IMG/VR virus record: IMGVR_UViG_3300028840_001859
Location: 1 to 28,474 of that record
Source: a virus
DNA length: 28,474 bases
Reading direction: 5' to 3' (one strand)
The notes beneath the pieces are model-generated. The model was not told where the DNA came from. It saw only the letters and a list, made by a program, of their open reading frames with translations, and did not search any database. The translations under genes and the position numbers were made by a program. The stretch's first letter is position 1; each line of letters starts with the position of its first letter. Below, one piece after another: positions 2,460 to 28,268 of this stretch.

Positions 2460-2462
2460 ACA

Positions 2463-2714
2463 ATGGCGAGAACGTTAGCCGATGAAAGAAAATACTGCGA
2501 GGATATGATTGAGGCATTAAGCGCCACGCTCGAAGGGCGCGCCGGATCTGATATCACTCAATATCAAGTCGGAGGGCAGTTGATTACTAAAATGCCTGTT
2601 AAAGACTTGATCTACTACCGGGGCTATTTTACCTCAAGGTTACAACAAATTAAGCAACGCGAGCGAGCGCAAAAAGGACAAGCAACAGGCCGCTTGATTC
2701 GGTGCAAATTTTGA
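2463..2714 (+). CDS. gpW-like head-tail connector
   Basis: An 83-residue protein between terminase and portal, the place where lambda-like phages encode gpW. In that family the protein binds the filled head and lets tail-joining proteins attach. The pattern fits: an N-terminal helix (residues 1-25), a short beta hairpin with YQVGGQLITKM (about 34-44), and a second helix with DLIYYRGYFTSRLQQ, then a basic tail. ATG at 2463 follows the terminase stop almost directly. The end overlaps the portal start at 2702 by 13 bases, suggesting coupled translation. Confidence 0.7.
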   Translation: MARTLADERKYCEDMIEALSATLEGRAGSDITQYQVGGQLITKMPVKDLIYYRGYFTSRLQQIKQRERAQKGQATGRLIRCKF

Positions 2715-4207
2715 AGAGCAAATTTTATGGAGGGGTTGACCTAACGCCCCAGATAAAGCCAAGGGTAAAGAAGCTACGCAAGCGCCGATACGATGGCGCG
2801 ACAATTGACCGTTTCTCCTCCGATTGGGTAGCAGGTCAAAGCCGCTCGCCATCCTTTGAGATCCTGCCATATCTGACAACCATGATAACGCGCTCTCGTG
2901 ATCTGGCACAGAATAACGACTATGTGAAAGGCTTTATAAAGCGCGTTAAAACCCAGCTAATACCCGCTCATGGCAGGCACCAAGGCATGAGACTCCAATC
3001 AAGGGCTATGGATAATGGCGAACTTTTAGAGCAAGAAAACGCCACCATCGAGGCCGCGTGGAGTCGTTTTTCAAGGCTTGGCCATTGCGACGTAACACGC
3101 CTAATGACTATGGCCGACATTATAGCCATAGCAGCGCAAACGCTCGTTAGAGATGGCGCTGTTTTTGTCCGGAGGTTAACGGGCTTCGGTAATGATGACT
3201 ACTTTGCGGTACAGCTCCTGGAAGTGGATTACCTCGATTTTGAGCTAACACTTGACCTTGGGGGCGGGCGTAAAATCATTGGAGGGGTTGAGCTTGATGA
3301 ATGGGGCGCGCCGGTCAACTATTATTTTCTGCAAAATCATCCTGGCTCAAGCCTCCAGGGGTATAAACGAGACGCGCACAAGATAATCCCAGCGCGAGAA
3401 CTTATCTATCTTGGCGTTCAAGACGCGCCCGAGCAATACCACTACGCGCCGTGGTTTCATGCCTCGCTTATACGCATGAGGATGCTTGGAAAGTATGAAG
3501 AGTCAGAAGCCATAGCCTCCAGAATAGCCGCCAATAAGATGGGGTTTTATACGACACAGGAGGGTGTAAGCTATACTGGCGACGACTTGACCGACATCGA
3601 CACAGACGAAGTGTTAGAGGATGAGGGGCCGGACTTCTTAACCCAAGCCGAACCGGGCGTACTTGAAGAATTACCTCCTGGCGTTGGTTTCGCTACATTT
3701 GACCCGCAGCATCCCTCTAAAACTTTCGCCGATTTCTGCCGGCATATGTTGAGAGGCGTAAGCGCTGGACAGAATGTCTCATACATTAATTTTGCAAGCG
3801 ATCTAAGAGAGGCTAATTTTGCAAGCATGAGGCAGGGAGAGCTCTCCGAGCGTGATATGTGGATGTTGTTTCAGGCGTGGATAGGCTACCGGCTGATGAA
3901 TGAAATTTTTGAGCCATGGCTATTGATCCAAATGCTATCTGGCCGCTTGCCATACAGGGTTGAAGACTTCGGCAAGCTAAACCGCCCTTACTGGCAGGGT
4001 AAGCGCTGGGCGTGGATTGATCCATTGAAGGATGCCAAGGCCGCTGACGTTGCCATCACTAATCGAACCAAGACGCCTGGCGACGTAATAGAAGAGGGCG
4101 GAGGAGACTTTGACGAAACAATGGCAAAATGGAAAAGACAATTGCCAGTGTTAAATGAATTATTCGGAGGAAACTATGAAACTAATGACTCGAAAGGTCA
4201 GTCTTAA
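2702..4207 (+). CDS. Portal protein, lambda gpB family
   Basis: Forms the ring at one head vertex through which DNA enters and to which the tail is joined. The 501-residue length and order of segments fit the lambda-type portal family. There is an early region with DWVAGQSRSP and SRDLAQNNDYVKGF, a central segment with VDYLDFEL and an EWGAPVNYYF motif, and a late SYINFASDLREANFASMRQGELSERD helix that is typical for these portals. The start is GTG at 2702 inside the gpW-like gene. The end overlaps the capsid gene start at 4176. Confidence 0.92.
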   Translation: MQILKSKFYGGVDLTPQIKPRVKKLRKRRYDGATIDRFSSDWVAGQSRSPSFEILPYLTTMITRSRDLAQNNDYVKGFIKRVKTQLIPAHGRHQGMRLQSRAMDNGELLEQENATIEAAWSRFSRLGHCDVTRLMTMADIIAIAAQTLVRDGAVFVRRLTGFGNDDYFAVQLLEVDYLDFELTLDLGGGRKIIGGVELDEWGAPVNYYFLQNHPGSSLQGYKRDAHKIIPARELIYLGVQDAPEQYHYAPWFHASLIRMRMLGKYEESEAIASRIAANKMGFYTTQEGVSYTGDDLTDIDTDEVLEDEGPDFLTQAEPGVLEELPPGVGFATFDPQHPSKTFADFCRHMLRGVSAGQNVSYINFASDLREANFASMRQGELSERDMWMLFQAWIGYRLMNEIFEPWLLIQMLSGRLPYRVEDFGKLNRPYWQGKRWAWIDPLKDAKAADVAITNRTKTPGDVIEEGGGDFDETMAKWKRQLPVLNELFGGNYETNDSKGQS

Positions 4208-6095
4208 CAGGCCGAAGACCTTAAACGCCGACGCCCGAAGCGTTGAAGTTGTCGGAGCTACTCAAGCGCCAGTTAGGGTTTGGGACTGGGATAGAGGGGC
4301 AATTGATGAAGTGCTCCTGATAAAGGGCGTACAATTGCCAAAAACAAAGCAAGTACCCTTGCTCGATAGCCATAACCGATGGGATACAGAGGATGTAATT
4401 GGCTCATATCGCGACATAAAAAAGAGTGGTGAAGAGCTTACGGGCACGGTGTTTTTCAGCGAACTAGCGGAGAAACAGTGGAAACTTGTTAATGAAGGGC
4501 ACTTGACAGACTTCTCAGTTGGGTACGTAAGAGAAGAAAAGCGCTGGCTCGATGAGGGTGAAAAGTGGAAAACAGGGGGGCAAGAGTTTAACGGCCCTCT
4601 CATGGTTGTTACTAAATGGACACTAAAGGAGCTTTCAGCATGTCCTATCGGGGCCGACGCTGGCGCTAAAGCCAGAGCGGAGCCGGCAGGCATTGACAAG
4701 CGGATAGACGACAAACTTAAACAAGCGCTAAAAGAGCGCGGGGAGGAAAAAATGAAACCTGAAGACAAAGAGACAAGAGACACTCCGGTTGTCGATGTTG
4801 ACCAAGTGAAAGCGACGGCCATAGAAAACGAGCGGGCACGAATCGCAGAGATTAACGCCATCGAGAGCGCTTGCTCAGATAGCGCGAACCTTCGAGAGGC
4901 CGCAGACAAAGCAATAGCCAACGGCGACGATGCAGAGAGCTTCCGGAGAACAGCGTTCGAGGAAGTACTCCGGCAGAACGACGCCAAGCCTGTTGAGAAG
5001 AAAAACGCCGACATTGGTATGTCGCGAAAGGAGATCGAGGGCTATTCCATCCTTCGGGCCATCGCTGCCCACGCGGATAAGGACTGGAGCAACGCTGGCC
5101 TTGAGCGCGAGGCATCGCAAGCTGCAGAGAAAGAGCTTAAACGCTCGCCAAGGGGCTTTTTCATCCCGAGCGACGTGCTGACAGCGCGGAATCCATTCGG
5201 GCACTATAGCGAGCGCGAATTATCAACGCTCAACACTGGCCAATACCTCGTTGATACAGATGTCCTTTACAGCTCATTTATTGAGTTGCTGGAAAACCGG
5301 ATGCTTGTACGGCAATTGGGCGCTACTGTACTTACTGGCTTGGTTGGTGACATCGCCATCCCGAAAGAGACTGGCGCACCAACAATGTATTGGATCGGCG
5401 AAAACAAGGACATAGACGCAGAGAGCGCGCCGACCCTTGGCCAGATTGGATTTACTCCGAAGACCGGCGCGGCATACACGGACTTGAGCCGGAAGCTCAT
5501 CCTTCAATCGAGCATCTCCGTTGAGGCATACACGAGGATGAGACTTCAAAAGACCGTGGCTCTGGGTATCGACTACGCCGCGCTGCACGGTACGGGGTTG
5601 GAGAATATGCCGCGAGGAATTGAGCATACACCTGGAATCAATACCGTTGCCATAGGTGCCAACGGTGGCGCTATGACATGGGCCAAGGCCGTCGAGTTTG
5701 AGACGAGCGTTTCCGCTGATAACGCTGATATTGGTACAATGAACTTCCTGACCAACGCCCGAGCGCGTGGCCACATGAAGACCACTGCCAAAGAGAGCGG
5801 CTACCCGGTCTATATCTGGGAGGGAATGCAGGTCAACGGATATAACGCCTTTGTTTCCAATCAGGTGAGGGGCGATTATGCAAAGGGCACGCATACTGAT
5901 GAGGATTTGTGCGCGGCTTTCTTTGGCAATTGGGCACAGTTGATTATCGCTCAATGGTCAGGGATGGATGTCTTGACAGATCCCTATACCCTGGCGACAA
6001 GCGGCCAAGTGCGGGTGCTGCTTTTCACCGACGTTGACACCAACGTATCACAGCCAACCGCTTTCGCCTTCTGTAGCGATATCGAAGCTGACTAA
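4176..6095 (+). CDS. Prohead protease fused to major capsid protein
   Basis: One reading frame joins two head proteins. Residues 1 to about 175 resemble the HK97-type (S78/U35-like) prohead protease, with the expected His in LLDSHNR (H66) and Ser in DFSVGY (S114). A charged, helical, scaffold-like stretch follows (about 190-285), then an HK97-fold major capsid protein from about residue 320, with FIPSDV, TGQYLV, LLENRMLVRQLG and LTDPYTLATSGQVRV. In the family the protease trims the scaffold-like domain during maturation. I chose ATG 4176 because GGAGG sits 5 bases upstream; an in-frame ATG at 4155 has no such site. Protease-capsid fusions are known, but here a second start at 4752 would allow excess capsid protein to be made. 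Confidence 0.9.
   Translation: MKLMTRKVSLNRPKTLNADARSVEVVGATQAPVRVWDWDRGAIDEVLLIKGVQLPKTKQVPLLDSHNRWDTEDVIGSYRDIKKSGEELTGTVFFSELAEKQWKLVNEGHLTDFSVGYVREEKRWLDEGEKWKTGGQEFNGPLMVVTKWTLKELSACPIGADAGAKARAEPAGIDKRIDDKLKQALKERGEEKMKPEDKETRDTPVVDVDQVKATAIENERARIAEINAIESACSDSANLREAADKAIANGDDAESFRRTAFEEVLRQNDAKPVEKKNADIGMSRKEIEGYSILRAIAAHADKDWSNAGLEREASQAAEKELKRSPRGFFIPSDVLTARNPFGHYSERELSTLNTGQYLVDTDVLYSSFIELLENRMLVRQLGATVLTGLVGDIAIPKETGAPTMYWIGENKDIDAESAPTLGQIGFTPKTGAAYTDLSRKLILQSSISVEAYTRMRLQKTVALGIDYAALHGTGLENMPRGIEHTPGINTVAIGANGGAMTWAKAVEFETSVSADNADIGTMNFLTNARARGHMKTTAKESGYPVYIWEGMQVNGYNAFVSNQVRGDYAKGTHTDEDLCAAFFGNWAQLIIAQWSGMDVLTDPYTLATSGQVRVLLFTDVDTNVSQPTAFAFCSDIEAD
4741..4754 (+). promoter_or_regulatory. 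Internal ribosome binding site inside the protease-capsid gene
   Basis: GGGAGG followed by AAAAAA and ATG lies at the boundary between the protease and scaffold-capsid parts. It matches the Shine-Dalgarno consensus as well as the sites of the stand-alone genes nearby, with suitable spacing. Confidence 0.6.
4752..6095 (+). CDS. Nested major capsid protein from an internal start
   Basis: An in-frame ATG at 4752 has an excellent ribosome binding site (GGGAGG at 4741-4746, then an A run). Starting here gives a 447-residue product with no protease residues: a charged helical N-terminal region (about residues 1-95) like the HK97 delta domain, then the whole capsid fold. Capsid subunits are needed in hundreds of copies and protease in few, so two products from one gene make sense, comparable in logic to lambda C/Nu3. 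This is inferred from sequence only; the full-length fusion could still be made and cleaved instead. Confidence 0.55.
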   Translation: MKPEDKETRDTPVVDVDQVKATAIENERARIAEINAIESACSDSANLREAADKAIANGDDAESFRRTAFEEVLRQNDAKPVEKKNADIGMSRKEIEGYSILRAIAAHADKDWSNAGLEREASQAAEKELKRSPRGFFIPSDVLTARNPFGHYSERELSTLNTGQYLVDTDVLYSSFIELLENRMLVRQLGATVLTGLVGDIAIPKETGAPTMYWIGENKDIDAESAPTLGQIGFTPKTGAAYTDLSRKLILQSSISVEAYTRMRLQKTVALGIDYAALHGTGLENMPRGIEHTPGINTVAIGANGGAMTWAKAVEFETSVSADNADIGTMNFLTNARARGHMKTTAKESGYPVYIWEGMQVNGYNAFVSNQVRGDYAKGTHTDEDLCAAFFGNWAQLIIAQWSGMDVLTDPYTLATSGQVRVLLFTDVDTNVSQPTAFAFCSDIEAD

Positions 6096-6102
6096 AAAAA
6101 AC

Positions 6103-6121
6103 TGGGGGCGCTATGCCCCCA
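6103..6121. terminator. Hairpin after the capsid gene
   Basis: TGGGGGC and GCCCCCA form a perfect 7-bp stem with a 5-base loop. On the + strand it is followed by ATAAAAAGGAGG, the next gene's ribosome binding site, so it lacks a U tract. On the - strand it is followed by a run of eight T. It could therefore stop antisense transcription, or protect or separate the capsid mRNA end. Confidence 0.45.
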
Positions 6122-6139
6122 TAAAAAGGAGGTAATAAA

Positions 6140-6520
6140 ATGCCGACAATCAGAGAATTAAGCGGGAATGTAGATCCGAGAACGCTTTACTGTGACACGC
6201 CCTCAGCGGCCTTTCTTGGCGCGGCGCTGACTATCCCAAAAGGTGCCTATGGTATTATGTATGGAATTGTAGCCGGGGCTGATGACGAAGCCGTTGTCGC
6301 CAAGGTTACAGAGTGTGACACCGTTGGTGGAACATATACTGACATCACTGGCGCGACGTTTGCGCTTGATGACACCTTGACCGGAAGCTCTCGCCTTTAC
6401 ACTTGTTTTGTTAAGTCAAATCAAGAGTTTCAAAAGGTATCGGTGACGAGCACGCCAACAGGCGGCCTTGAATACGTTGTCTTCGCGCTCATTCATGGTC
6501 AGAAAGAAGTGCCAGTCTAA
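6140..6520 (+). CDS. Possible head decoration protein
   Basis: A 126-residue protein of unknown family. Hydrophobic and beta-prone segments alternate with glycine- and threonine-rich turns, and there are no membrane segments. It lies directly after the major capsid gene behind a strong ribosome binding site (GGAGG, 6128-6132), where many phages encode a capsid decoration or cement protein. That role is inferred from position and the beta-rich look only. The end overlaps the next gene by one base (TAATG). Confidence 0.5.
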   Translation: MPTIRELSGNVDPRTLYCDTPSAAFLGAALTIPKGAYGIMYGIVAGADDEAVVAKVTECDTVGGTYTDITGATFALDDTLTGSSRLYTCFVKSNQEFQKVSVTSTPTGGLEYVVFALIHGQKEVPV

Positions 6521-6834
6521 TGGCAATCAATATTCAATCTATGGTTGATGCCGACACGGCTGCTATTATTGGCTCTGGTGGTGAAGTGGCAGAGGAGATC
6601 GCTTACAATGCCGCCACCATCTGGGCCATAGTCGTGCGAAACAAGGAGATTGAGAAACAAGTTGGCTTGGTGATATCAGACGCCACGGTCTATGCCAAAA
6701 AGTCAGATATCGCCAATCCTTCCGGTGCCGATAAACTTGTAATTGATGGTATCAACTATAGGGTTGGATCAATCGACGATTATTCGCCGAGTATCTGGGC
6801 GATAGAAACGAATAAGTGGTTGGGAGATGCCTGA
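6520..6834 (+). CDS. Head-tail joining protein (stopper-like, gpFII-like)
   Basis: The 104-residue protein has the length and layout of lambda gpFII-type joining proteins. It has a helical start, a middle strand region, and the ending D-K-L-V-I-D-G-I-N-Y-R-V-G-S-I, a strand pattern common to this group. In that family the protein seals the portal channel and docks the tail. It starts in the stop codon of the previous gene and overlaps the next by 8 bases. The order after the capsid gene agrees. The identification is by pattern, not by a catalytic motif. Confidence 0.6.
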   Translation: MAINIQSMVDADTAAIIGSGGEVAEEIAYNAATIWAIVVRNKEIEKQVGLVISDATVYAKKSDIANPSGADKLVIDGINYRVGSIDDYSPSIWAIETNKWLGDA

Positions 6835-19674: not shown

Positions 19675-19845
19675 TCACTCATCCCTTGTCGAAATGATTG
19701 GCTTTTGGTGCTCGATTGGTGGCGCTTGTGACTCAAGGATGAGGTCGGATAGTTCTATTAATAGATCTTTGGTTTGATTGTTAATCTCTGGCGCTCCATA
19801 TCTTACCTTGAATTGAAACTCATCTATTTTCTTTTGTAGGCTCAT
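19675..19845 (-). CDS. Small unknown protein, last gene of the leftward operon
   Basis: A 56-residue protein: a charged N-terminal helix (M-S-L-Q-K-K-I-D-E-F-Q), then a leucine-rich helix (D-L-L-I-E-L-S-D-L-I-L-E). The start overlaps the stop of the upstream gene as TGATG, and GGAGG lies 4 bases ahead. It ends 5 bases from the convergent membrane-protein gene. The family is unknown. The gene is supported by coupling, ribosome binding site and an uninterrupted frame. Confidence 0.6.
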   Translation of the reverse strand: MSLQKKIDEFQFKVRYGAPEINNQTKDLLIELSDLILESQAPPIEHQKPIISTRDE

Positions 19846-20213
19846 CACTCCTCCACGCCAGATAAGGCTCTTAAAATAGCTATTACTGACTTTATGTCAT
19901 ATTGAAGGCTTGTCTCAATCGCAGTGCACGTCACCACGGTGCGCACGCGCACGGAGATTTCTGGGTTATTGGTGGTGTCAAGTTCAACGTTTCCTTGCTC
20001 ATCTGGATAGAAAATGCCGGCCATTGGTGGCGTATCAACGAAGTCGAGAGTTGCGGCGTCAACCTCATATGTGAGCACTTGGCACTTGACGCCAGGGCTT
20101 GAATGAACCTCAACTTGAGGCGTGGTTAATCTAACGAGATCCGCGCTTGCTATGGTTGGCGCGAAAATCAAAATAATTAAAAGTCTAATTCCCATTTTGT
20201 ATATAGCTCCCAT
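19845..20213 (-). CDS. Exported protein with signal peptide
   Basis: The N-terminus has a basic start, a hydrophobic core (L-L-I-I-L-I-F-A-P-T) and A-S-A before D, a typical Sec signal peptide. The mature part, about 98 residues, is beta-rich with two cysteines (one in K-C-Q-V-L, one in T-C-T-A) that could form a disulfide in the periplasm. It could start at 20213 or at the second ATG at 20195, which has GGGAG upstream. It overlaps genes on both sides within the leftward operon. Function unknown; an exported early product could alter the host envelope. Confidence 0.6.
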   Translation of the reverse strand: MGAIYKMGIRLLIILIFAPTIASADLVRLTTPQVEVHSSPGVKCQVLTYEVDAATLDFVDTPPMAGIFYPDEQGNVELDTTNNPEISVRVRTVVTCTAIETSLQYDIKSVIAILRALSGVEE

Positions 20214-20521
20214 GCGTCTTGTAGTTTCCCCCGTGTTATTTTAATGTGTTTCAGGTGGCCTTGTCTATCTTCATAGGTCACTGGCCGACCAATTAAAAGA
20301 TGGGTAAATTGATAGTTTTTGGCGTTGTCGCCATCATATAAAAAGCGCCAATCTTTTGACGCTGAAATCTGGATACCTGTTCTATCTTCAAAATACTTGA
20401 TAAAGCGCTTATCATCGAGATTATACGAATACTCATCTATTTTGAGTAATACGTCCAATCTATTGCAAAGCATCTTAGGGAATGGCCTCTGCCATCCTGT
20501 TTGCTCATGGATTGTTTTCAC
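20177..20521 (-). CDS. Unknown protein in the leftward operon
   Basis: A 114-residue protein with a hydrophilic, aromatic-rich sequence (D-W-R-F-L-Y-D-G-D, Y-E-D-R-Q-G-H-L-K). It begins with GTG at 20521 as GTGA across the stop of the gene before, with GGAGG just upstream. I see no membrane segment or known motif. Tight overlap with both neighbours supports it as part of one transcript from the leftward promoter. Confidence 0.6.
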   Translation of the reverse strand: MKTIHEQTGWQRPFPKMLCNRLDVLLKIDEYSYNLDDKRFIKYFEDRTGIQISASKDWRFLYDGDNAKNYQFTHLLIGRPVTYEDRQGHLKHIKITRGKLQDAWELYTKWELDF

Positions 20522-20805
20522 TCATCCTCCTCGGCTTCGGTGTGGTCTTCCTCTTCGTTTTTTACCCATTTTCCCGATTCACTTATCCTCCACTCTTCGC
20601 CATACGGGCCACACCATGATGCTTGATCATAATAAACATGTCTATATATGATTGTATCATCCTCGTCTAAATCAGGGCATTCTGAATTCCCGTACCATTG
20701 TGCCGGGTCGCCGTCGATATAGCCAATTGTTGTTGAACCATCGGTGGAAATAATTTCAACTTCTAATTTTTCACCATATTTATTTTCGATTTTGTAATCA
20801 GCCAT
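20518..20805 (-). CDS. Acidic small protein
   Basis: A 95-residue protein, very acidic, especially at the C-terminus (E-E-E-D-H-T-E-A-E-E-D-E). The middle is rich in Y, W and G (Q-W-Y-G-N-S, W-C-G-P-Y-G-E-E-W). The start at 20805 is chosen for its AAGGAG site; a longer frame to 20862 has none and would run into the next gene. Small acidic early phage proteins sometimes mimic DNA to block host defence, but there is no family evidence here. Confidence 0.6.
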   Translation of the reverse strand: MADYKIENKYGEKLEVEIISTDGSTTIGYIDGDPAQWYGNSECPDLDEDDTIIYRHVYYDQASWCGPYGEEWRISESGKWVKNEEEDHTEAEEDE

Positions 20806-20816
20806 TTTTTTCTCCT

Positions 20817-20978
20817 TTATGCCCTTTCTGACATAATTTCTTTTATAGCATTTTCTTCCCATGTCGTTGCTGGGCGATTGCCAGCCATCGCGGCAATTAG
20901 ATCATTTGTTATCATGTCAACATAATGAGGGGCTTGAGTTCTTTTTACATAGTCTTTTATGTGCTCTGGTAATGTCAT
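20817..20978 (-). CDS. First gene of the leftward operon, small unknown protein
   Basis: A 53-residue protein with M-T-L-P-E-H-I-K-D-Y-V-K-R and two later helices. AGGAG lies 7 bases before ATG 20978, and the gene is about 25 bases downstream of the predicted transcript start from the leftward promoter. The family is unknown. Confidence 0.6.
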   Translation of the reverse strand: MTLPEHIKDYVKRTQAPHYVDMITNDLIAAMAGNRPATTWEENAIKEIMSERA

Positions 20979-21065: not shown

Positions 21066-21072
21066 AAAATTG

Positions 21073-21102
21073 TTGACACGTCATAGGCTAAAATGGTTTA
21101 AA
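21073..21102 (+). promoter_or_regulatory. Rightward promoter
   Basis: TTGACA at 21073-21078 is a consensus -35. A weaker -10 (TTTAAA, 21097-21102, 18-base spacer) follows, with O3 beginning 2 bases later, covering the predicted start site. It would transcribe the regulator and recombination genes. Confidence 0.6.
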
Positions 21103-21103
21103 A

Positions 21104-21120
21104 TATCGCAACTGGCGAAA
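21104..21120. promoter_or_regulatory. Operator O3
   Basis: TATCGC-AACTG-GCGAAA, matching O2 in both arms. It covers the likely transcription start of the rightward promoter, so binding there would repress the regulator's own operon. Confidence 0.7.
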
Positions 21121-21141
21121 ACACCAAAAAGGAGGGAGACA

Positions 21142-21348
21142 TTGGCAACTCAAATAGAACTATCAAAGGCGTCTGGCATTGGCCAAGGACACCTATCAGA
21201 TATATTAAGGGGCGTTAAGCCCATTGGCAGGGAGACGGCTCAAAAGCTTGAAAGGTTTACCCAGATCCGCTGGGTAGAGTTTTTGGACATGGGGGCCGAC
21301 GAAGTGAAAAAAGCAATGGAGGAGGCGTATAAAAATGCCACTGATTAG
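21142..21348 (+). CDS. Cro/repressor-like helix-turn-helix regulator
   Basis: A 68-residue DNA-binding protein. Residues 3-12 and 15-24 form a helix-turn-helix with the pattern S-G-I-G-Q-G-H-L-S-D-I-L-R-G, typical of Cro/CI-like proteins. I take the TTG at 21142 as start because GGAGG lies 6 bases ahead. The frame is open back to a TTG at 21070, which would supply a first helix, but that codon is upstream of the predicted transcript start and lacks a ribosome binding site. It most probably binds the three 17-bp operators directly upstream and controls both divergent operons. No separate CI-like repressor is seen in the window. Confidence 0.75.
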   Translation: MATQIELSKASGIGQGHLSDILRGVKPIGRETAQKLERFTQIRWVEFLDMGADEVKKAMEEAYKNATD

Positions 21349-22126
21349 GGATCTGCCAAACAAAGAATATCATGCCAAGCCAGGTTTAAGCTCATCTGGC
21401 CTTGGATCACTGGCAAAGTCGCCAGCGCATTACCTGGCGAGCAAAGAAGATCAAGAGGAAACCAAGGCGCTCAAATTTGGCACGGCTTTCCATACCTATG
21501 TATTGGAGCCGGAAAAGTTTCAGGCAGAGATAGCCGTAGCTCCAAAAGTGGATAGACGAACCAAGGCCGGAAAAACAGCATGGATCGAATTCGTTGGTAG
21601 CGCTGCCGACAAAACCATCATAGATGAGGAGGATATGGAAACCATAAAGCGCATGGGCGAAAGCGTTTACGCTCATCCCGAAGCCATGCGTTTGCTCGAT
21701 GCCGAGGGTTTTGTGGAGGTTTCGTGCTTTTGGGATGATTATACACTTGGCGCGCCGTGCAAATGCCGCCCAGATAAGCTCAATGCTGGTGGTGCTTGTA
21801 TAGATCTAAAGAGCACGGAGGATGCCAGCCAACGGGCTTTTGCGCGCTCATGTGGTCAATATAACTATATTAAGCGCGCCGCGTTTTATCTTCGAGGCTT
21901 GAGCCAAGTAACGGGGTACCCACATACCGAATTTTATTTTATCGCCGTAGAGAAAAAAGCGCCATATGGCACGATGGTTTATCAAGTGCCACGAGTTTAC
22001 CTCGACATTGCAGCCGAGGAACTCGACGCGCTAATAGCCCTCTATGGCCGCTGCATTAAAGATGACCTCTGGCCCGGTTATCTGCCGGAAGTCGAACAAT
22101 TAACCATGCCCGCATGGGCACTATAA
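21335..22126 (+). CDS. RecE-like exonuclease (PD-(D/E)XK)
   Basis: A 263-residue nuclease of the exodeoxyribonuclease VIII/RecE type, which degrades one strand of double-stranded DNA to leave a 3' overhang for a partner annealing protein. Visible motifs: F-G-T-A-F-H (about 48-53), R-P-D-K-L (D147), I-D-L-K-S-T (D157, K159) and the following Q-Y-N-Y-I-K helix (Q175), all standard for this fold. The ATG at 21335 has GGAGG upstream and overlaps the regulator gene by 14 bases. The RecT-like gene follows. Confidence 0.85.
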   Translation: MPLIRDLPNKEYHAKPGLSSSGLGSLAKSPAHYLASKEDQEETKALKFGTAFHTYVLEPEKFQAEIAVAPKVDRRTKAGKTAWIEFVGSAADKTIIDEEDMETIKRMGESVYAHPEAMRLLDAEGFVEVSCFWDDYTLGAPCKCRPDKLNAGGACIDLKSTEDASQRAFARSCGQYNYIKRAAFYLRGLSQVTGYPHTEFYFIAVEKKAPYGTMVYQVPRVYLDIAAEELDALIALYGRCIKDDLWPGYLPEVEQLTMPAWAL

Positions 22127-22137
22127 AAGGAGCGACT

Positions 22138-23622
22138 ATGAACGAATTAACGACAACAGCCCCCACAAAGGCACTTTCTAACATGCTGTTTGATCACAAC
22201 GCTTTTGAGCATGTCCACAGGGTGGCGGAGATATTCTCGAAGTCAAACTATGTCCCGACTGAATTCCAAAACAACCTTGGTAACTGTATTATCGCGCTCG
22301 ATTACGCTGGGCGTCTTGGCTTGCATCCCCTGATGCTTATGCAAGGTATGGTTTTGGTGCACGGCAAGCCCGCGCTTGAAGGGCGCGTTATCAAGGCCAT
22401 ACTCAACGCCTCCGGATTGTTTGGTCCGGTGCGCTATGAGATTAGAGGCGACATCACGAGGTATGATAACAACGATGATGATGGCTGTAGAGCTTATGCC
22501 GAGCATAGGGCCCTAGGAGAAACGCTCTATGGTTCATGGATAACTTGGCGCGTTGTGATGGCTGAAGGTTGGTATGGCAAGAATGGGAGCAAGTGGAAAA
22601 CGATGCCCGAACAGATGTTCAAATATAGAGCTATCTCATGGTTCGTAAAATCGGAAGCGCCGGAGGTTTTACTCGGGATGCAGACTTCGGAGGAGCTTAG
22701 AGACATTACGCCTATGGTAAAGCGTGGAGAGACATTCGTGGCAGAAGCTCAAGAGAAAATAGAGCAAGCCGAGCCGGTTTATGTCGTGGAGGATGCTACC
22801 AAATTGACAGATAAAATTGATGGTATGCCAGGTCAACCCCTGGCCGAGGTTAAAACAGAGAGCGCCCCCCCTATCGAAGAAAAAGCCGCGCCTAAAGAGG
22901 GGCAAGCGCCCGAAGAGGAGCAAGCGCCAGAGGAAGCCGAGCCACTTAAAAAGCAAGACTTTCTCTCAATGCGTCAAAATTTTACAGAGGAGTGGATCAA
23001 CGCCAATGAGGAGCGGATCAAGGTATCGGAGCCGGATGTCATTGTCGCGCTGATTAAAAAAGCGCGGCGGATGATAGATAAGGATTACGAACTGCCGTGG
23101 GAAAAGGAGGAAACCACCAAGGCTCAAGAGGAAGCCAAGCCCGATGAGGAAGCCAAGCCCGATGAAGCCCCTAAGACATTTGGTTCGGATCCTAATATCA
23201 TGGGACAAGTCAAGGTCATGGTGGCTGAGCGTGGCTATGATATCGAGGGGTTAAAAAGCGCTATGGCGTCTTATCACGTTCTCGAACGCGGCAAGCCAGT
23301 ACGCTACCCTTTTCAGGGCAAAAGCTCCAGAGATTTCTTGGTAGAAGACTTTAAGCACTGGGAACCTTTTCTTGATAGCATTGCGGATGCCCACGCCATC
23401 ATGATGCAGGTTGAGGCCGATGACGAAAATTATCCGGGCTGGACTGACCATATCCGCGTTGTTATGCGCAATGAGGAGGTCATGGGTAAGGATAAGGCCG
23501 TGAGCCGGGCGCGCCATTGGTACACGTTAACCAACGCCACTATAAAGGCCGTTGATAAGCATTATAAAGATTGGCTGAGGGGCTATAGCGAGCAACTTAA
23601 CGGCGACGACGAGCAATTCTAA
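22138..23622 (+). CDS. RecT-like single-strand annealing protein
   Basis: Pairs with the RecE-like exonuclease to anneal complementary strands. The N-terminal 200 residues fit the RecT family: I-A-L-D-Y-A-G-R-L-G-L-H-P, Q-G-M-V-L-V-H-G-K-P-A-L and a later M-F-K-Y-R-A-I-S-W-F. A long linker (about 225-345) is rich in E, P and K, with near repeats of E-E-A-K-P-D. A C-terminal domain of about 145 residues, with H-W-E-P-F and D-W-L-R-G-Y, is unusual for RecT proteins, which are usually near 270 residues; total length here is 494. I chose ATG 22138 for its AAGGAG site over an in-frame ATG at 22114. Confidence 0.85.
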   Translation: MNELTTTAPTKALSNMLFDHNAFEHVHRVAEIFSKSNYVPTEFQNNLGNCIIALDYAGRLGLHPLMLMQGMVLVHGKPALEGRVIKAILNASGLFGPVRYEIRGDITRYDNNDDDGCRAYAEHRALGETLYGSWITWRVVMAEGWYGKNGSKWKTMPEQMFKYRAISWFVKSEAPEVLLGMQTSEELRDITPMVKRGETFVAEAQEKIEQAEPVYVVEDATKLTDKIDGMPGQPLAEVKTESAPPIEEKAAPKEGQAPEEEQAPEEAEPLKKQDFLSMRQNFTEEWINANEERIKVSEPDVIVALIKKARRMIDKDYELPWEKEETTKAQEEAKPDEEAKPDEAPKTFGSDPNIMGQVKVMVAERGYDIEGLKSAMASYHVLERGKPVRYPFQGKSSRDFLVEDFKHWEPFLDSIADAHAIMMQVEADDENYPGWTDHIRVVMRNEEVMGKDKAVSRARHWYTLTNATIKAVDKHYKDWLRGYSEQLNGDDEQF

Positions 23623-23798
23623 TGGAAGTGATATTAACTGAAGATCGCCATGACGATATTTTGGCCAATGTGAAAAATATCCGAGTGGCGCTCGGAAAAC
23701 TCGTGGCCTGTAGCCCGGAAGAAAAAGAGCAATTTAATACGATACGCGCCAACCTTGGGCGCATCATAACAACCTTAGAAGGAGGGCTAAAAATATGA
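23622..23798 (+). CDS. Small helical protein after RecT
   Basis: A 58-residue protein starting in the RecT-like stop (TAATG) and ending in the next gene's start (ATGA). It has two charged helices (D-D-I-L-A-N-V-K-N-I-R and E-E-K-E-Q-F-N-T-I-R). Coupling on both sides supports it as a real gene. The family is unknown. Confidence 0.6.
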   Translation: MEVILTEDRHDDILANVKNIRVALGKLVACSPEEKEQFNTIRANLGRIITTLEGGLKI

Positions 23799-24151
23799 GG
23801 GATCGTGACAAGAAGACAGCAGGCTTGATTGTTTTTTTTGTGGCTTCGGTTTTGCTTGTGGCTGCTATCATGTCATGTGAGACGATATCAAAGATGAGCG
23901 ATGAGGAGCGCTTGGCGACGGCTGGCAAGGCGCTTGAGGCGGTTAAAACTGCCGCCGAGCTTTATGACATGCTCAAGGGTAAAAGTACGATTGAGATGCA
24001 GTTGGCGCTTGGAGAGGCGGACAATATGGTCACGGCTCAAGCTCGAGGGAATACAGATCCGGAGCCGGTGAGATATTGGCGCTATGGCGATAATGTTATT
24101 TATAGTCAGGGGGGCGTTGTTATCGACGTTAGAGAAGCATATGGAGATTAA
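23795..24151 (+). CDS. BamE/SmpA-like lipoprotein
   Basis: A 118-residue protein with a basic start, a hydrophobic segment (about residues 9-27) and cysteine 28 in I-M-S-C, a plausible lipobox. The C-terminal part has L-A-L-G-E-A-D and W-R-Y-G-D-N-V-I-Y-S with a final strand, the pattern of the small BamE/SmpA/OmlA fold. It may sit in the host envelope; a role in superinfection exclusion is possible but only inferred. GGAGGG lies 8 bases before the ATG. Confidence 0.6.
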   Translation: MRDRDKKTAGLIVFFVASVLLVAAIMSCETISKMSDEERLATAGKALEAVKTAAELYDMLKGKSTIEMQLALGEADNMVTAQARGNTDPEPVRYWRYGDNVIYSQGGVVIDVREAYGD

Positions 24152-24320
24152 GGGTTTTGTGTATCGGGACAAGAGGAAGCAGGACGGAGGCGTAAAGCTT
24201 TACGCTTTCTATGATGCTGATATGGAGAGCGTTGAGGTTGACGCGCCCTATGGCCCCTTTGAACTGGCCGAAGCCCTTGAGCTTATGGCCGAGAAACTAA
24301 GGAGGGTTGTCAATGAATGA
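24141..24320 (+). CDS. Small unknown protein
   Basis: A 59-residue protein, M-E-I-K-G-F-V-Y-R-D, with a beta-rich first half and a leucine-rich C-terminal helix (A-L-E-L-M-A-E-K-L-R). It starts inside the preceding gene; the in-frame frame extends upstream to 24084, but that start would lie wholly in the other gene. No known family. Its place between tightly packed early genes supports expression. Confidence 0.5.
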   Translation: MEIKGFVYRDKRKQDGGVKLYAFYDADMESVEVDAPYGPFELAEALELMAEKLRRVVNE

Positions 24321-24486
24321 GCGAAAAAAGGAGATGATTGAGGTATGCTTTCGGAGCGCCGGCGTTAAGTTCACTGATTCGGGCGTTATTTCCTCAATTG
24401 ACGACTTTTGGGAGGGCGTGGCGCGAGCGCTGAGGCACCATGATGGTGAGGATCTGGCCAGTATTTTCGGCCAAAAGGAGGGTTGA
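24313..24486 (+). CDS. Small unknown protein
   Basis: A 57-residue protein (start M-N-E-R-K-K-E, end F-G-Q-K-E-G) behind a GGAGGG site 6 bases before its ATG. The start overlaps the preceding stop region and its own stop overlaps the nuclease start as TGATG. It is charged and helical, with no motif I recognise. Confidence 0.6.
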   Translation: MNERKKEMIEVCFRSAGVKFTDSGVISSIDDFWEGVARALRHHDGEDLASIFGQKEG

Positions 24487-24833
24487 TGAGACGCTTTAAA
24501 CGCCCAGAACCAAAAGAGGCGGAGTTAACGCGGGCCGTTAGGGACATGCTGAAAAGTTTAAAGATATTCCATTTTAAGCACTGGGCCGGCCCGATGACAT
24601 CGCCAAAGGGCATATCGGATATATTGGGATGCTACAAGGGCCGGATGATCGCCATCGAACTTAAAAAGCCAGGGTGGAAGCCACCAAAACCAACCTCTAA
24701 AGCCTATAAGCATTACCGCCACCAAGCCGATTTTATTGACGCAGTCAGGCGCGCGGGTGGCGTTGCTTTTTTCGCCCAGTCAATTGATGACGTTATTGAT
24801 GGCTTAGGGGTTCGGGATAGATTTTTATTTTGA
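24486..24833 (+). CDS. VRR-NUC domain nuclease
   Basis: A 115-residue protein consisting almost wholly of a VRR-NUC fold, a small PD-(D/E)XK nuclease common in phages near recombination genes. The motif K-G-I-S-D-I-L-G (D45) is followed by I-A-I-E-L-K-K-P (E58, K60) and a later H-Q-A-D-F (Q80), the expected catalytic pattern. It may resolve branched DNA. ATG 24486 overlaps the stop of the preceding gene. A cassette array begins 22 bases after its stop. Confidence 0.85.
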   Translation: MRRFKRPEPKEAELTRAVRDMLKSLKIFHFKHWAGPMTSPKGISDILGCYKGRMIAIELKKPGWKPPKPTSKAYKHYRHQADFIDAVRRAGGVAFFAQSIDDVIDGLGVRDRFLF

Positions 24834-24886
24834 TGTTTTCCACTTATTACACTGTTATGCCAAAAAATCGTGAATGGAGTTAAATA

Positions 24887-25096
24887 ATGAGCGAGATCGA
24901 ACAATTAAAAAACAGAATCGATGACAGCGGTATGGATGGTGTTTTAACCGAGCATATCAGAGATGATTATGAACCTGCGGGGCAGATGATGATTAATCAG
25001 CTAACAGATTCAGGCGAATATGTTCAAAGAAAAACACCAGCCCACAGTTTTAATCAAAAATGGAGAATATTTAAAAAAGAATTCAAGCCATATTAA
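24887..25096 (+). CDS. Cassette 1 gene, unknown
   Basis: A 69-residue hydrophilic protein with I-E-Q-L-K-N-R-I-D-D at the start and N-Q-K-W-R-I-F-K-K-E near the end. It starts 32 bases into the cassette behind a GGAG site and stops 2 bases before attC1. I do not recognise a family. The cassette has no promoter of its own that I can see, so it would be read from the phage operon. Confidence 0.55.
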   Translation: MSEIEQLKNRIDDSGMDGVLTEHIRDDYEPAGQMMINQLTDSGEYVQRKTPAHSFNQKWRIFKKEFKPY

Positions 25097-25098
25097 TG

Positions 25099-25156
25099 GC
25101 ATAACAAGCCAATCCAGCGGATGCGCTACCGCGCACCGCTGATATGAACGTTAAAC
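25099..25156 (+). repeat. attC1 recombination site
   Basis: Inverse core GCATAAC (25099-25105), core GTTAAAC (25150-25156). Between them CAGCGG-AT-GCGC pairs with GCGC-A-CCGCTG (25115-25141) with uneven unpaired bases, as required for a folded attC. Confidence 0.8.
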
Positions 25157-25173
25157 GCAAAAGGAATATATCT

Positions 25174-25359
25174 ATGAGAAGGTTAGCTCTGACAAAAAAC
25201 GACTTAGCCAGGGTGATAATTCAGGCGCTTTATAAAATGCCGAAACTCCCGCCAGCGGATCACCCTAAAGTTTTGAATATGGCTAAACGGAAAAAAGTAG
25301 ATTTAATAACGCCACACAGAAACGCAGTTAAAATAATTCAGTGTGAAATGCGCGTTTAA
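25174..25359 (+). CDS. Cassette 2 gene, basic small protein
   Basis: A 61-residue, strongly basic protein (M-R-R-L-A-L-T-K-N-D-L, M-A-K-R-K-K-V-D). ATG 25174 has AAGGAA 7 bases ahead; an in-frame ATG at 25144 lies before the cassette start, inside attC1. The stop lies inside the inverse core of attC2. It might bind nucleic acid, judging from charge alone. Confidence 0.55.
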   Translation: MRRLALTKNDLARVIIQALYKMPKLPPADHPKVLNMAKRKKVDLITPHRNAVKIIQCEMRV

Positions 25360-25482
25360 CAAGGTTATTTGAGCGGATTGCTAAAGTTTGCGGGCATTTG
25401 GTTATCGGGTAATAGCCCCGATAAAAAGCTAGCGAAGACACTGCCAGTCATATGGCCGCAACCGCTCACCAACACGTTCATT
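25354..25482 (+). repeat. attC2 recombination site, long type
   Basis: Inverse core GTTTAAC (25354-25360), core GTTCATT (25476-25482). GAGCGG (25371-25376) pairs with CCGCTC (25462-25467). An inner perfect hairpin TTATCGGG/CCCGATAA lies at 25402-25424. At about 129 bases it is similar in length to long chromosomal-integron sites. The space 25360-25498 holds no gene. Confidence 0.7.
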
Positions 25483-25498
25483 TTCTTAGGAGGCAATT

Positions 25499-25729
25499 AT
25501 GAATTTTGAATTATGGTGGCACGAAAATAAACACTCAATAATTGTAGATGGTGTGAAAAACAGGATAATCAGGCATGCCGCAAAGGCGGCGTGGGCTGCT
25601 TCCGCGAACCATCACGAAAATGAACAAGCAGCCAAAGCGGATGCGCAACCCGAACCGTGTTTCACTTGTGGCGGAACTGATTTAAAAATCACCTGTAATG
25701 AATGCGGTGCATGGGACCACACCGCTTAA
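25499..25729 (+). CDS. Cassette 3 gene, zinc-ribbon-like protein
   Basis: A 76-residue protein. The N-terminus is aromatic and charged (M-N-F-E-L-W-W-H-E-N-K), with an alanine-rich helix as in small accessory proteins of many phages. The C-terminus has C-F-T-C-G-G and C-N-E-C-G, a likely zinc ribbon. AGGAGG lies 7 bases before ATG 25499. The 3' end overlaps a degenerate attC. Confidence 0.6.
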   Translation: MNFELWWHENKHSIIVDGVKNRIIRHAAKAAWAASANHHENEQAAKADAQPEPCFTCGGTDLKITCNECGAWDHTA

Positions 25730-25742
25730 CGAAGCGTTATAA
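25697..25742 (+). repeat. attC3, degenerate site
   Basis: Inverse core AATGAAT (25697-25703, inside the gene), arms GCGGTG and CACCGC, and core GTTATAA (25736-25742). It is shorter than the others, and the inverse core lacks the AAC normally conserved. It may be decayed or recombined. Confidence 0.45.
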
Positions 25743-25766
25743 CCCTTAAAAAACACAGGTATCAAT

Positions 25767-26489
25767 ATGAACAATTATTTATCATTCGGCGGCGGGGTGA
25801 ACTCAGTAGCTCTTCATTTGCTGATGCTTAAAGAAAAGGTAGATTTTGAGGCTATCTTTATCGATCATGCTACAGACTGGCCGGAAACCTATACATACTT
25901 AGGCATGTTCCAAGAATGGCTAAAAAATGAAGGTCATAAGAGCATAACTGTACTAAAACCAAATGTTGAAGGGTTTTCTTCGTTATACGATTATTTGTGG
26001 CATTATAAAATGATACCGTCTTTCAGACTGCGTTTTTGCACCGATAAATTCAAGGTGCGCGTGGTGCAACAATATGTATCAACGCCATGTTTTATGATGC
26101 TTGGCATTGATGCAGGGGAGAAAAAAAGGGCGAAGATATCTATTAAAAATGGAATAGAAAACAGATTTCCATTGATCGAGTATGACATTGATCGAGATGG
26201 ATGCAAAAAAATAATCAAAGACCATGGCTTGCCCATCCCTATTAAGTCAGGTTGTTACATTTGTCCATTTCAACGGGTCATACAATGGCGTGATCTGAGG
26301 AGGAACAAACCGGACTTGTTTTGCAAGGCGAGAAAATTAGAAGAAAGAGCAACCCGCTTCAGGGTAGAAAGAGGTAAAACGCCTGTAAATATTTCGGCAT
26401 CAAACAAAAAACTAAGTCTGTTGGTTGGTGAAGACCAAATGACCTTATTTAAGCAAGACGAATACCCACCATGCCAATGCGGGTTATAA
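25767..26489 (+). CDS. Cassette 4 gene, PAPS-reductase/alpha-hydrolase-like protein
   Basis: A 240-residue protein of the adenine nucleotide alpha hydrolase (PP-loop, PAPS reductase-like) group. S-F-G-G-G-V-N-S (residues 6-13) is the PP-loop, here with V-N-S where classical members have K-D-S. F-C-T-D-K-F-K (C91) and K-S-G-C-Y-I-C-P-F (C163, C166) are conserved-looking in phage members, and C-Q-C (C236, C238) is at the end. Related phage proteins are common next to DNA-modification genes, so a role in sulfur or nucleotide modification of DNA is possible but inferred. The stop lies within the inverse core of attC4. Confidence 0.75.
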   Translation: MNNYLSFGGGVNSVALHLLMLKEKVDFEAIFIDHATDWPETYTYLGMFQEWLKNEGHKSITVLKPNVEGFSSLYDYLWHYKMIPSFRLRFCTDKFKVRVVQQYVSTPCFMMLGIDAGEKKRAKISIKNGIENRFPLIEYDIDRDGCKKIIKDHGLPIPIKSGCYICPFQRVIQWRDLRRNKPDLFCKARKLEERATRFRVERGKTPVNISASNKKLSLLVGEDQMTLFKQDEYPPCQCGL

Positions 26490-26550
26490 CAAGAAAATAA
26501 ACACGGAACGGGCCAAACAGCCGGCCCGTCCGGTTATCTAAACGTTATAT
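26484..26550 (+). repeat. attC4 recombination site
   Basis: Inverse core TTATAAC (26484-26490), core GTTATAT (26544-26550). ACGGGCC (26508-26514) pairs perfectly with GGCCCGT (26523-26529). Confidence 0.8.
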
Positions 26551-26553
26551 CGT

Positions 26554-26997
26554 ATGCTAAATTTGCAGCCAATAACATATAAAGAAGCCTGCCATTTCAT
26601 AGCCGAGAACCATAGGCATCACTTACCGCCCCAAGGCTGGAAATATGGCATCGCCGTCAATGATGGTGCGGGAAAAATAGTTGGTGTCATTACCATAGGC
26701 CGTCCGGTAGCTCGCCATTATGATAACGGGTACACACTTGAAGTTACTAGATGCTGCACCGATGGGACAAAAAACGCATGTTCAAAGCTGTATTCAGCAG
26801 CATGGCGAGCTGCAAGGGCTTTAGGTTATAAGCGCCTCATAACATACATACTAAAAACAGAGACAGGCGCATCTATAAAGGCGTCAGGCTGGAAACTTGT
26901 TGGTGAGGCCGGAGGTGGCTCATGGTCGAGAAAAACAAGACCACGAATAGATACAGCACCAACAGGGCAAAAGCTACTTTTCGATATAACAAGCTAA
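26554..26997 (+). CDS. Cassette 5 gene, XF1762 family (Mom/GNAT-like)
   Basis: A 147-residue protein that I recognise as the XF1762 family, with H-R-H-H-L-P-P-Q-G-W-K (20-30), G-V-I-T-I-G-R-P-V-A-R (44-54), L-E-V-T-R-C-C-T-D-G-T-K-N-A-C-S (62-77) and A-S-G-W-K-L-V-G (110-117). The family has an acetyltransferase-like fold and is often compared with phage Mu Mom, which modifies adenines to resist restriction. ATG 26554 is only 9 bases after the cassette start and has no ribosome binding site. The 3' end covers an inverse core (CGATATAAC, 26982-26990). Confidence 0.75.
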   Translation: MLNLQPITYKEACHFIAENHRHHLPPQGWKYGIAVNDGAGKIVGVITIGRPVARHYDNGYTLEVTRCCTDGTKNACSKLYSAAWRAARALGYKRLITYILKTETGASIKASGWKLVGEAGGGSWSRKTRPRIDTAPTGQKLLFDITS

Positions 26998-27086
26998 TTA
27001 AGCAGATCCCTGTTTCTGATGAGTTCTACAATAAAATACGTGGGGATTGCGAGAGTGACGAGTGGTATACAAATTTAAACACATAA
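26922..27086 (+). CDS. Overlapping small gene in cassette 5
   Basis: A 54-residue basic protein (M-V-E-K-N-K-T-T-N-R at the start, E-W-Y-T-N-L-N-T at the end) in a different frame from the XF1762-like gene, overlapping it by 76 bases. A strong GGAGG lies 6 bases before its ATG, and its stop sits in the inverse core ACATAAC of attC5. These make it likely to be real. The family is unknown. Confidence 0.55.
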   Translation: MVEKNKTTNRYSTNRAKATFRYNKLIKQIPVSDEFYNKIRGDCESDEWYTNLNT

Positions 27087-27143
27087 CAAAGCGCTGAACC
27101 GGGATGCCAAAAAGCGTGGCGCTCGTTAGCTTCAGCGTTATGC
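27081..27143 (+). repeat. attC5 recombination site
   Basis: Inverse core ACATAAC (27081-27087), core GTTATGC (27137-27143). CGCTGAA (27092-27098) pairs with TTCAGCG (27131-27137). A longer alternative site is possible from 26984, where AAGCTAA (26991-26997) pairs with TTAGCTT (27126-27132). Either way the array ends here. Confidence 0.75.
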
Positions 27144-27157
27144 ATAAAGGAGTCAAA

Positions 27158-27403
27158 ATGAGGCAAGCAAGGCCAAGTGATGTACGTTGGAGCACTGCCA
27201 ACGAAATCACGTTTATCAGGAAATTAGGGAGTCATGTAAACCCTTTATACTATCCATACAACTCGGCGAAGGTTAGTCGAATGACGTTACTTAATGGATA
27301 TATTGAGGGCGCAAAGCTACGGGATGACTGGGGGCATATCAATTCAAAGGCGTGCATTGCATACGCTAAAAACGAGCTTTTACGGCTAAAGGAGGAGGGA
27401 TGA
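27158..27403 (+). CDS. Unknown phage protein after the array
   Basis: An 81-residue protein. It has M-R-Q-A-R-P-S-D at the start, a Y-Y-P-Y-N-S-A-K-V-S-R middle and a charged C-terminal helix. AAGGAG lies 6 bases before ATG 27158, and its stop overlaps the next gene as ATGA, so it belongs to the phage backbone operon. The in-frame extension to 27104 runs through attC5 and is not used. The family is unknown. Confidence 0.6.
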   Translation: MRQARPSDVRWSTANEITFIRKLGSHVNPLYYPYNSAKVSRMTLLNGYIEGAKLRDDWGHINSKACIAYAKNELLRLKEEG

Positions 27404-27807
27404 GCAACTACAAAATGTACTGGCTAATATCGATAGCATGCGCAATCGCTAGCCTTGTTCTCGCGTTTAATGATGTTAGTTGGGCGCTGTTCGATAGCGC
27501 CGAGGAGAAAGCCGCCGCCGAGGTCGCCATCATGAACGCCAAGACCGACAACGAGATCAAGCTTCAACGGGCTTATGAGGATCTATATCAAGCCAGGATG
27601 CTGCTGGCGTCAATGGGTGTCAAGGAGGCGTCAAGCGGGCCGCCTTGGTGGTTCTGGCTATGGTCAATTATCGCCATTATCGCGGGCGCTGTTATCGCTT
27701 TAATTTGGGTAGCGTCAAGGCGTAATCAAGGCCGCCAAGTACCAGTAAATAGTAGTGAATACTTGTTAATCCCAAGAGAAAAATTATACGAAATAGAGGG
27801 GAGATAA
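27400..27807 (+). CDS. Membrane protein with coiled-coil middle
   Basis: A 135-residue protein with membrane segments at about residues 5-24 and 84-107. Between them lies a charged helical stretch (A-A-A-E-V-A-I-M-N-A-K, then L-Q-R-A-Y-E-D-L-Y-Q-A-R) likely to form a coiled coil. The second segment starts with P-P-W-W-F-W-L-W and ends at R-R. It could be a spanin-like or envelope protein, but I see no family match. It starts at ATGA over the previous stop. Confidence 0.6.
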   Translation: MSNYKMYWLISIACAIASLVLAFNDVSWALFDSAEEKAAAEVAIMNAKTDNEIKLQRAYEDLYQARMLLASMGVKEASSGPPWWFWLWSIIAIIAGAVIALIWVASRRNQGRQVPVNSSEYLLIPREKLYEIEGR

Positions 27808-27809
27808 TT

Positions 27810-28268
27810 ATGCTTGAAACTATTTTTGCAATCGTTATTAGCGGTATAGTTTTGAATGATTTGGCAGGTGGGGCAATTGAGCCAACAAAACCACTATCCG
27901 ACAAGACGAAAGAGAAACAAGAAATAATGACATTTCTTGAGCCAAAACTAACAAAGGGGCTATTTGGTGGTACATATGGCAAGGTGAAGGCTAGGGTCGA
28001 TGAATACTACCGAATCAAGCCTGAAAATATACGTATCCGCCACGTTTTTAACCTATGCCTTTTTATCGTTGATATAATTGATGATGATCAATGGTTAATA
28101 GATCGCGCGAAAGAGCACGATAAGCCAATTAATAAGGCTCAAGCAAATGAGCCAACAATGCCAGGTGTGCCGAATTTTAATAGTCCTGATTTTCAGGCGG
28201 GCTATTCGATGGGATGGCAACAAGCCATGATTCAAAACCAAGCGCCAAAAATGATACAAGGAGGTTAA
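27810..28268 (+). CDS. Unknown protein with N-terminal hydrophobic helix
   Basis: A 152-residue protein. A hydrophobic start (about residues 3-20) may be a membrane anchor. A basic, soluble middle follows, then a C-terminus rich in Q, P and M (P-D-F-Q-A-G-Y-S-M-G-W-Q-Q). It lies 2 bases after the preceding membrane-protein gene and 2 bases before the next. I do not recognise the family. Confidence 0.6.
   Translation: MLETIFAIVISGIVLNDLAGGAIEPTKPLSDKTKEKQEIMTFLEPKLTKGLFGGTYGKVKARVDEYYRIKPENIRIRHVFNLCLFIVDIIDDDQWLIDRAKEHDKPINKAQANEPTMPGVPNFNSPDFQAGYSMGWQQAMIQNQAPKMIQGG

Follow-up and report, generated by a model that had tools for sequence, protein, structure and literature searches.

The IMG/VR virus record IMGVR_UViG_3300028840_001859, a tailed-phage contig of 28,474 bases that was analysed at its full length (the window), carries a row of small units with attC-like sites between two of its phage genes. 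This raises the question whether these units are integron gene cassettes and, if so, how they came to lie in a phage genome. Five head-to-tail units were found on the + strand at 24855-27137, flanked by an open reading frame (ORF) that ends at 24833 and another that starts at 27158, in agreement with the initial annotation of this DNA. They very probably form a phage-borne cluster of attC sites lacking an integron integrase (CALIN), which occupies a gap between genes in the rightward early region of the phage. An independently trained covariance model, the asymmetry of the attC arms, and matches between cassette starts and R'' cores all support the integron-cassette reading already proposed in that annotation. 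Positions and scores are listed in Table 1.

Cassette starts and R'' cores

A cassette start is recognisable only through its own R''. Each GTT of the region was searched for its longest perfect reverse complement downstream, with the core ending in AAC. The starts of cassettes 1 to 4 were complementary to the cassette's own R'' over 9, 9, 10 and 10 bases (GTT at 24854, 25150, 25476 and 25736, with cores ending at 25105, 25360, 25625 and 26490, respectively), which bears out the 8-10 bases of complementarity originally described for four of the five cassettes. The R'' of cassette 3 is located inside the cassette's own ORF. When all GTT...AAC pairs 100-800 bases apart in the whole window were considered, 9 of 4981 matched over at least 9 bases; five of these were the cassettes and four lay elsewhere in the phage. 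Both ends of cassettes 2, 3 and 4 come from sites chosen by the structure scan described below, in which the matches were not used, and their match lengths were 9, 10 and 10. The start/R'' matches mark units that were once circular.

The start of cassette 5 (GTT at 26544) matched a core ending at 26990 over 9 bases, and this R'' (26982-26990) is displaced, lying within the Mom-like ORF close to its end. Because the match sits at a displaced R'', the last cassette is probably a fusion of two cassettes. The last of the five cassettes first described is thus probably not a clean unit.

Structure and folding of the attC sites

On both strands, the structure scan required AAC at one end and GTT at the other, each set off by a spacer from a stem in which single unpaired bases fall on the R''-L'' arm. 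As shown in Table 1, attC1, attC2, attC4 and attC5 had the four top scores of the window on either strand, the next score being 27.5. Of 5000 dinucleotide-shuffled versions of the 2.4 kb region, 4913 lacked sites scoring at least 28.2, 86 contained one, 1 contained two, and none contained more. Chance sites were commoner in real DNA than in shuffles, with 28 sites at this level in 1,097,274 strand-bases of 71 other loci (relatives of cassette genes, see below), the best scoring 35.0. As a real-DNA background, 786 overlapping 2400-base windows with a step of 1200 were taken from 76 loci, i.e. these 71 plus the contigs L001-L003, L005 and L006; 748 of the windows contained no such site, 31 contained one, 7 contained two, and none more. 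A linkage filter, combining the scan with linked starts, was applied to 81 sequences and flagged attC1, attC2 and attC4 of the window together with the known arrays in Tetrasphaera phage TJE1, Shewanella phage M16-3 and the Vibrio phage Va_90-11-286_p16. The sole further flag was one weak place in L001, and Polaribacter phage P12002L was not flagged.

Extrahelical bases on the R''-L'' arm and an unpaired central spacer are attC features (PMC2727003). Both were found here, with two single bulges on the R''-L'' arm of attC1, three each in attC4 and attC5, and one each in attC2 and attC3. Forcing the bulges to the other arm lowered the scores to 18.4 (attC1), 20.2 (attC2), 15.3 (attC3) and 14.2 (attC5), and attC4 was replaced by an overlapping place scoring 19.0, in line with the uneven unpaired bases noticed earlier on the attC arms; a non-site place at 26300-26430 went up from 17.1 to 22.6. 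Folding of the bottom strands, suggested as a check in the initial annotation, gave a divided outcome: going by the z-scores in Table 1, folding energy alone backs attC1 and attC4, and attC2 weakly, with attC3 and attC5 remaining near shuffles. Rfam gave no family at gathering score in the window.

Covariance model

A covariance model (CM R1) was trained on eight attC sites, three from TJE1 and five from M16-3, with the structure set by hand, and was run with filters off. Its top three matches in the window were attC1, attC4 and attC5 (E of 0.00023, 0.0024 and 0.0072, respectively), followed by a match of 14.8 bits on the opposite strand. For attC5 the alignment covered mainly the R boxes and spacers, and for attC4 additionally the L stem. 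Such a model had been proposed as a check from the outset, and for these three sites, although not for attC2 and attC3, it spoke in favour of the array.

With an E limit of 5, the model matched the held-out Vibrio phage Va_90-11-286_p16 at 15 places, of which the weakest scored 14.7 bits. All lie on the + strand from 28873 to 41004, rightward of the integrase annotated at 27091-28053; here the two methods disagree on strand, since the scan puts two of the seven linked sites on the - strand. At the same threshold, among the other held-out records, MW202573 had a single match (20.9 bits), Pseudoalteromonas phage H101 (L081) a single weak one within its first 50 kb (15.1 bits), and P12002L (L059) none. 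As attC sites have been reported in both P12002L and H101 (Qi et al. 2023, PMC9892861), the model misses some attC sites.

Assignment as a probable phage-borne CALIN

Several observations weigh against this assignment. attC3 is structurally no better than chance, in their minimum-energy folds attC3 and attC5 do not clearly surpass shuffles, and the covariance model returned chance-level fragments for attC2 and attC3. In addition, attC5 fails the linkage filter, and the start of cassette 5 matches the structurally best R'' (AAC ending at 27087) over 5 bases only. Both the covariance model and the structure scan are home-made. Other phage DNA also contains single sites scoring at least 28.2, and not rarely, so it is the clustering and the start/R'' matches that carry the case. 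Moreover, neither an empty site nor a relative spanning the region was found, and insertion is therefore not shown by comparison. Taken site by site, attC1, attC4 and attC5 are well supported, the support for attC2 is good, and that for attC3 is modest.

A CALIN has at least two nearby attC sites and no integron integrase nearby. Three sites within 2.1 kb were recovered by the covariance model (E 0.0072 or better) and four by the structure scan. That no integron integrase is visible, as stated in the initial annotation, was confirmed by searches of the record with PF00589, TIGR02249 and PF00239, none of which gave a match in its 28,474 bases, which may represent an incomplete fragment; the intI gene of a complete integron (PF00589, TIGR02249) was accordingly not found.

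Comparison with known integrons and CALINs

In a screen of 10,705 phage genomes, Qi et al. (2023; PMC9892861) reported 17 CALINs; of six attC sites taken from virulent phages, five were shown to recombine with attI1 by the action of IntI1. Since CALINs in phages were described there, the array is known in kind, and it is a clear and real further example. No further report devoted to phage CALINs was found in a literature search that left out most subscription papers and bioRxiv preprints. The CALINs of TJE1, H101/PH101, P12002L and MW202573 (PMC9892861) are likewise integrase-less attC clusters, and the left-end sites of TJE1 were recovered by the same scan, two of the three with linked starts. 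DNA-modifying cargo occurs in both cases: DNA methyltransferases were noted in the phage cassettes of Qi et al., and a Mom-like gene with a PAPS-reductase-like neighbour is present here. The array differs from those CALINs in its attC lengths, which range from about 58 to 129 bases, in its probably fused last cassette, and in its little DNA similarity.

The temperate-phage integrons of Va_90-11-286_p16 and M16-3 contain attC arrays with the same start/R'' logic, but both have an annotated integron integrase (also according to Qi et al.), whereas none was found here. Sedentary chromosomal and mobile class 1 integrons share the attC architecture and the cassette units (PMC2727003). Compared to these, the present array is located in a phage, no intI was found, and no attI was recognised, no attI model search having been made.

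Possible routes of cassette entry

As the initial annotation also suggested, the cassettes could have come from a host integrase: during residence of the phage in an integron-bearing host, the host's IntI would have recombined circular cassettes, as folded bottom strands, into a G/TTATGC site between two phage genes (the slash marks the crossover), and later cassettes would have been added through attC x attC recombination. A 2024 paper by Loot et al. reportedly concerns attG sites. A crossover at G/TT predicts the uninterrupted phage site ACACTG/TTATGCATAAAGG; this 19-base empty site had no exact match in viral_contigs, a result that neither supports nor refutes insertion. An unrelated attC comes after the displaced R'' of cassette 5, which points to a fusion of two cassettes by deletion: the last cassette would have lost an internal stretch, and the R'' of the Mom cassette would have been joined to an attC from a different cassette. 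Complete integrons can mobilise CALINs in trans (PMC11389934). On balance, we lean towards such cassette-by-cassette loading by a host integrase over en-bloc capture.

The latter, in which illegitimate or homologous recombination would move a whole CALIN block out of a chromosomal integron into the phage, contests the route and not the nature of the sites. It draws on Vibrio phages that contain a subset of the host chromosomal array, and on the suggestion that GTTRRRY-like motifs serve as off-target places for homologous or illegitimate recombination (Qi et al., PMC9892861). However, the left end of the array falls exactly at a cassette start with a 9-base match, 20 bases past an intact phage ORF, and we regard en-bloc capture as possible but rather unlikely. 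Misassembly, with an integron fragment wrongly joined into a phage contig, is much harder to sustain. The array comes from an IMG/VR record, and the sole near-identical contig, L005, stops short of it, but the junctions lie between ORFs that read through, a GGAG precedes the right-hand ORF, and cassettes 4 and 5 encode phage-type families, so that a chimaera is very improbable. Finally, lone attC-like stems do arise by chance in other phage DNA, and 24300-27500 contains four terminator-like sites (3.9 expected from shuffles), one of them on the - strand within attC4, but hairpins that are merely attC-like regulatory elements of the phage (terminators, attenuators) between small genes would leave the 9-10 base start/core matches, the cores and stems found by the covariance model, and the bulges on one arm unexplained, and this is the least credible explanation of all.

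If host integrases do load phage genomes with cassettes, integrons would be a two-way exchange point between bacteria and viruses, and phage cassettes a testable route for cassette spread.

Cargo of the cassettes

The interesting part of the array is its cargo. Judged by sequence, cassettes 4 and 5 appear to carry phage-type genes (PAPS-reductase-like and Mom-like), which are less usual cargo, and phage genes may thus have been turned into cassettes. The product of cassette 5 might help the phage genome to evade restriction by Mom-type DNA modification. For cassettes 1 to 3 there was no family over cut-off in Pfam or PHROG; the ORF of cassette 1 had no Pfam or PHROG match at E 0.1, and a tblastn search of plasmids and phages at E 0.01 likewise gave nothing. 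Few such arrays have been reported in phages, and the locus contributes a clean integrase-less one whose cargo points to the phage's own use (modification versus restriction).

Relatives of the cassette 4 and 5 genes were collected as 71 loci, comprising Mom-like relatives in 50 viral and 8 genome contigs, and PAPS-like relatives in 13 viral contigs. That these relatives also occur as cassettes was not supported: the covariance model gave no match at E 0.2 or better in the 71 loci (548,637 bases). None of the 71 passed the linkage filter, and unlinked structure-scan sites were present in 16. No locus matched the PAPS-like and the Mom-like protein together, and none matched cassettes 1-3. In view of the lack of cassette signs, the cassette form of the Mom-like and PAPS-like genes seen here is an exception among the stretches examined.

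A more speculative proposal, which we consider doubtful, is that some phages maintain a pool of cassettes made from phage-type genes, such as Mom-like genes, that is reshuffled by the integron integrase of the infected host. If such a pool exists, phages and hosts would trade anti-restriction genes through the host's integron, and the attC arrays in other IMG/VR contigs with phage genes, including the largely antisense one on contig L097 (see below), would be further cases.

Phage genome and flanking genes

That the array lies among phage genes, as first described, was corroborated by Pfam and PHROG searches and by the terminase comparison. The phage encodes a small and a large terminase, a portal protein, a capsid protein with a PF05065 domain, a tape measure protein, exonuclease VIII and RecT. 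Among the phage records compared, the closest large terminase was that of Wolbachia phage WO (42% identity). All ORFs taken as genes from 21070 to 28268, including those of the array, are on the + strand, and the array is therefore readable by phage transcription; the cassettes would be transcribed via the phage operon. A promoter scan of 24300-27500 gave 4 matches, below shuffles (6.4). The GC content of the array is 42.3%, within the range of the background windows (41.0-53.3%), and base composition was therefore rejected as a sign of foreign origin, being neutral either way.

The terminase query identified as near relatives the contig L005 and one distant match (L006), neither of which spans the array. 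L005, another IMG/VR record, is 99.9% identical over 6721 bases and spans window positions 5-6724 only, with the array outside. Queries with RecT and with the ORF at 27810-28268 gave no near relatives. The endonuclease query gave three contigs (L001-L003), the available stretches of which match no other window protein tested. At the DNA level, 24300-27500 was similar to two phage records over 5% of the query each (69-71%), all inside the Mom-like cassette.

Table 1. Features of the cassette array and its flanks in the 28,474-base window (CM, covariance model CM R1; structure, score in the structure scan; z, z-score of the bottom-strand fold; aa, amino acids; slash, crossover point)
Feature	Position	Strand	Evidence and remarks
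Exonuclease VIII and RecT-like genes	21335..23622	+	Upstream of array, same strand; phrog_412 3e-86, phrog_561 5.2e-54
Left flank, endonuclease / Holliday-junction-resolvase-like phage gene	24483..24833	+	phrog_93 3.4e-15; stop 20 bases ahead of array
Left junction, ...ACACTG/TTATGCC...	24848..24854	+	Sequence; final G assigned to presumed target from integron crossover rules
Cassette 1, ORF 24887-25096 (69 aa, no known family)	24855..25150	+	9-base start/R'' match
attC1	25097..25156	+	CM 27.2 bits, window's best; structure 34.9; z -4.25
Cassette 2, ORF 25144-25359 or from 25174 (no known family)	25151..25476	+	9-base match
attC2, long variable loop	25352..25482	+	Structure 28.2; z -2.06; CM fragment only (25354-25370, 8.9 bits)
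Cassette 3, ORF 25499-25729 (76 aa; two CxxC pairs by eye)	25477..25736	+	10-base match; weak family matches only, none over curated cut-off
attC3, weakest site, overlaps end of cassette 3 ORF	25616..25742	+	Structure 18.3; z -1.06; CM fragment 8.6 bits; main support is the 10-base match
Cassette 4, ORF 25767-26489 (240 aa), PAPS-reductase-like	25737..26544	+	phrog_424 8.9e-33; PF01507 5.8e-4, under its cut-off
attC4, three single unpaired bases on R''-L'' arm	26481..26550	+	CM 22.8 bits; structure 36.5; z -3.34
Cassette 5, ORF 26554-26997 (147 aa), Mom-like DNA modification protein, then probable remnant ending in attC5	26545..27137	+	phrog_1384 3.4e-39; PF25680 Mom 8e-5, under its cut-off
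R'' core matching cassette 5 start over 9 bases; own L'/R' half not visible	26982..26990	+	Match search; probable fusion
attC5, structurally best last site	27081..27143	+	CM 20.9 bits; structure 30.7; z -1.39
Right junction after G/, TTATGCATAAAGGAGTCAAA	27138..27157	+	Sequence; ribosome-binding-like GGAG ahead of next ORF
Right flank ORF, no known family	27158..27403	+	Pfam and PHROG searches

Elsewhere in the window, the large terminase ORF (556-2459) stops after 540 codons and its C-terminal part seemingly resumes in another frame; in L005 the large terminase is an unbroken ORF of 634 codons. The start of L005 corresponds to window base 5, which may be a genome end or an assembly break. The block separating the structural from the early region (19675-20978) contains small ORFs on the - strand, three of which (19845-20213, 20177-20521 and 20518-20862) were compared with PHROG and gave no match at E 0.01.

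Other viral contigs with attC-like sites

A search with a single degenerate attC pattern gave 22 viral contigs, a set that is preselected for attC-like ends because of the way it was found. A covariance model match at E 0.5 or better was present in 12 of them. L083, L088, L097, L099 and L104 passed a loose linkage filter, and by a stricter count two of the 22 (L097 and L104) had mutually linked sites. PHROG identified phage-type genes on L083, L088, L098, L099, L102 and L104 (one or two proteins each), and also on L097. These genes included RecT on L102, another annealing protein on L088, a helicase on L083 and a replication initiator on L099.

Contig L097 (3600-7260) carries phage genes (a RecE-like exonuclease and an endolysin) and ten linked attC sites, and all ten of its covariance model matches are on the - strand. 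At seven of the ten linked sites an ORF of at least 50 amino acids ends at the site on the strand opposite to attC, and at one of these seven such an ORF is found on the same strand too. The linked sites of L104 were split in ORF orientation (3 and 3 of 7), and the two linked sites counted in the window show the usual relation between ORF and attC.

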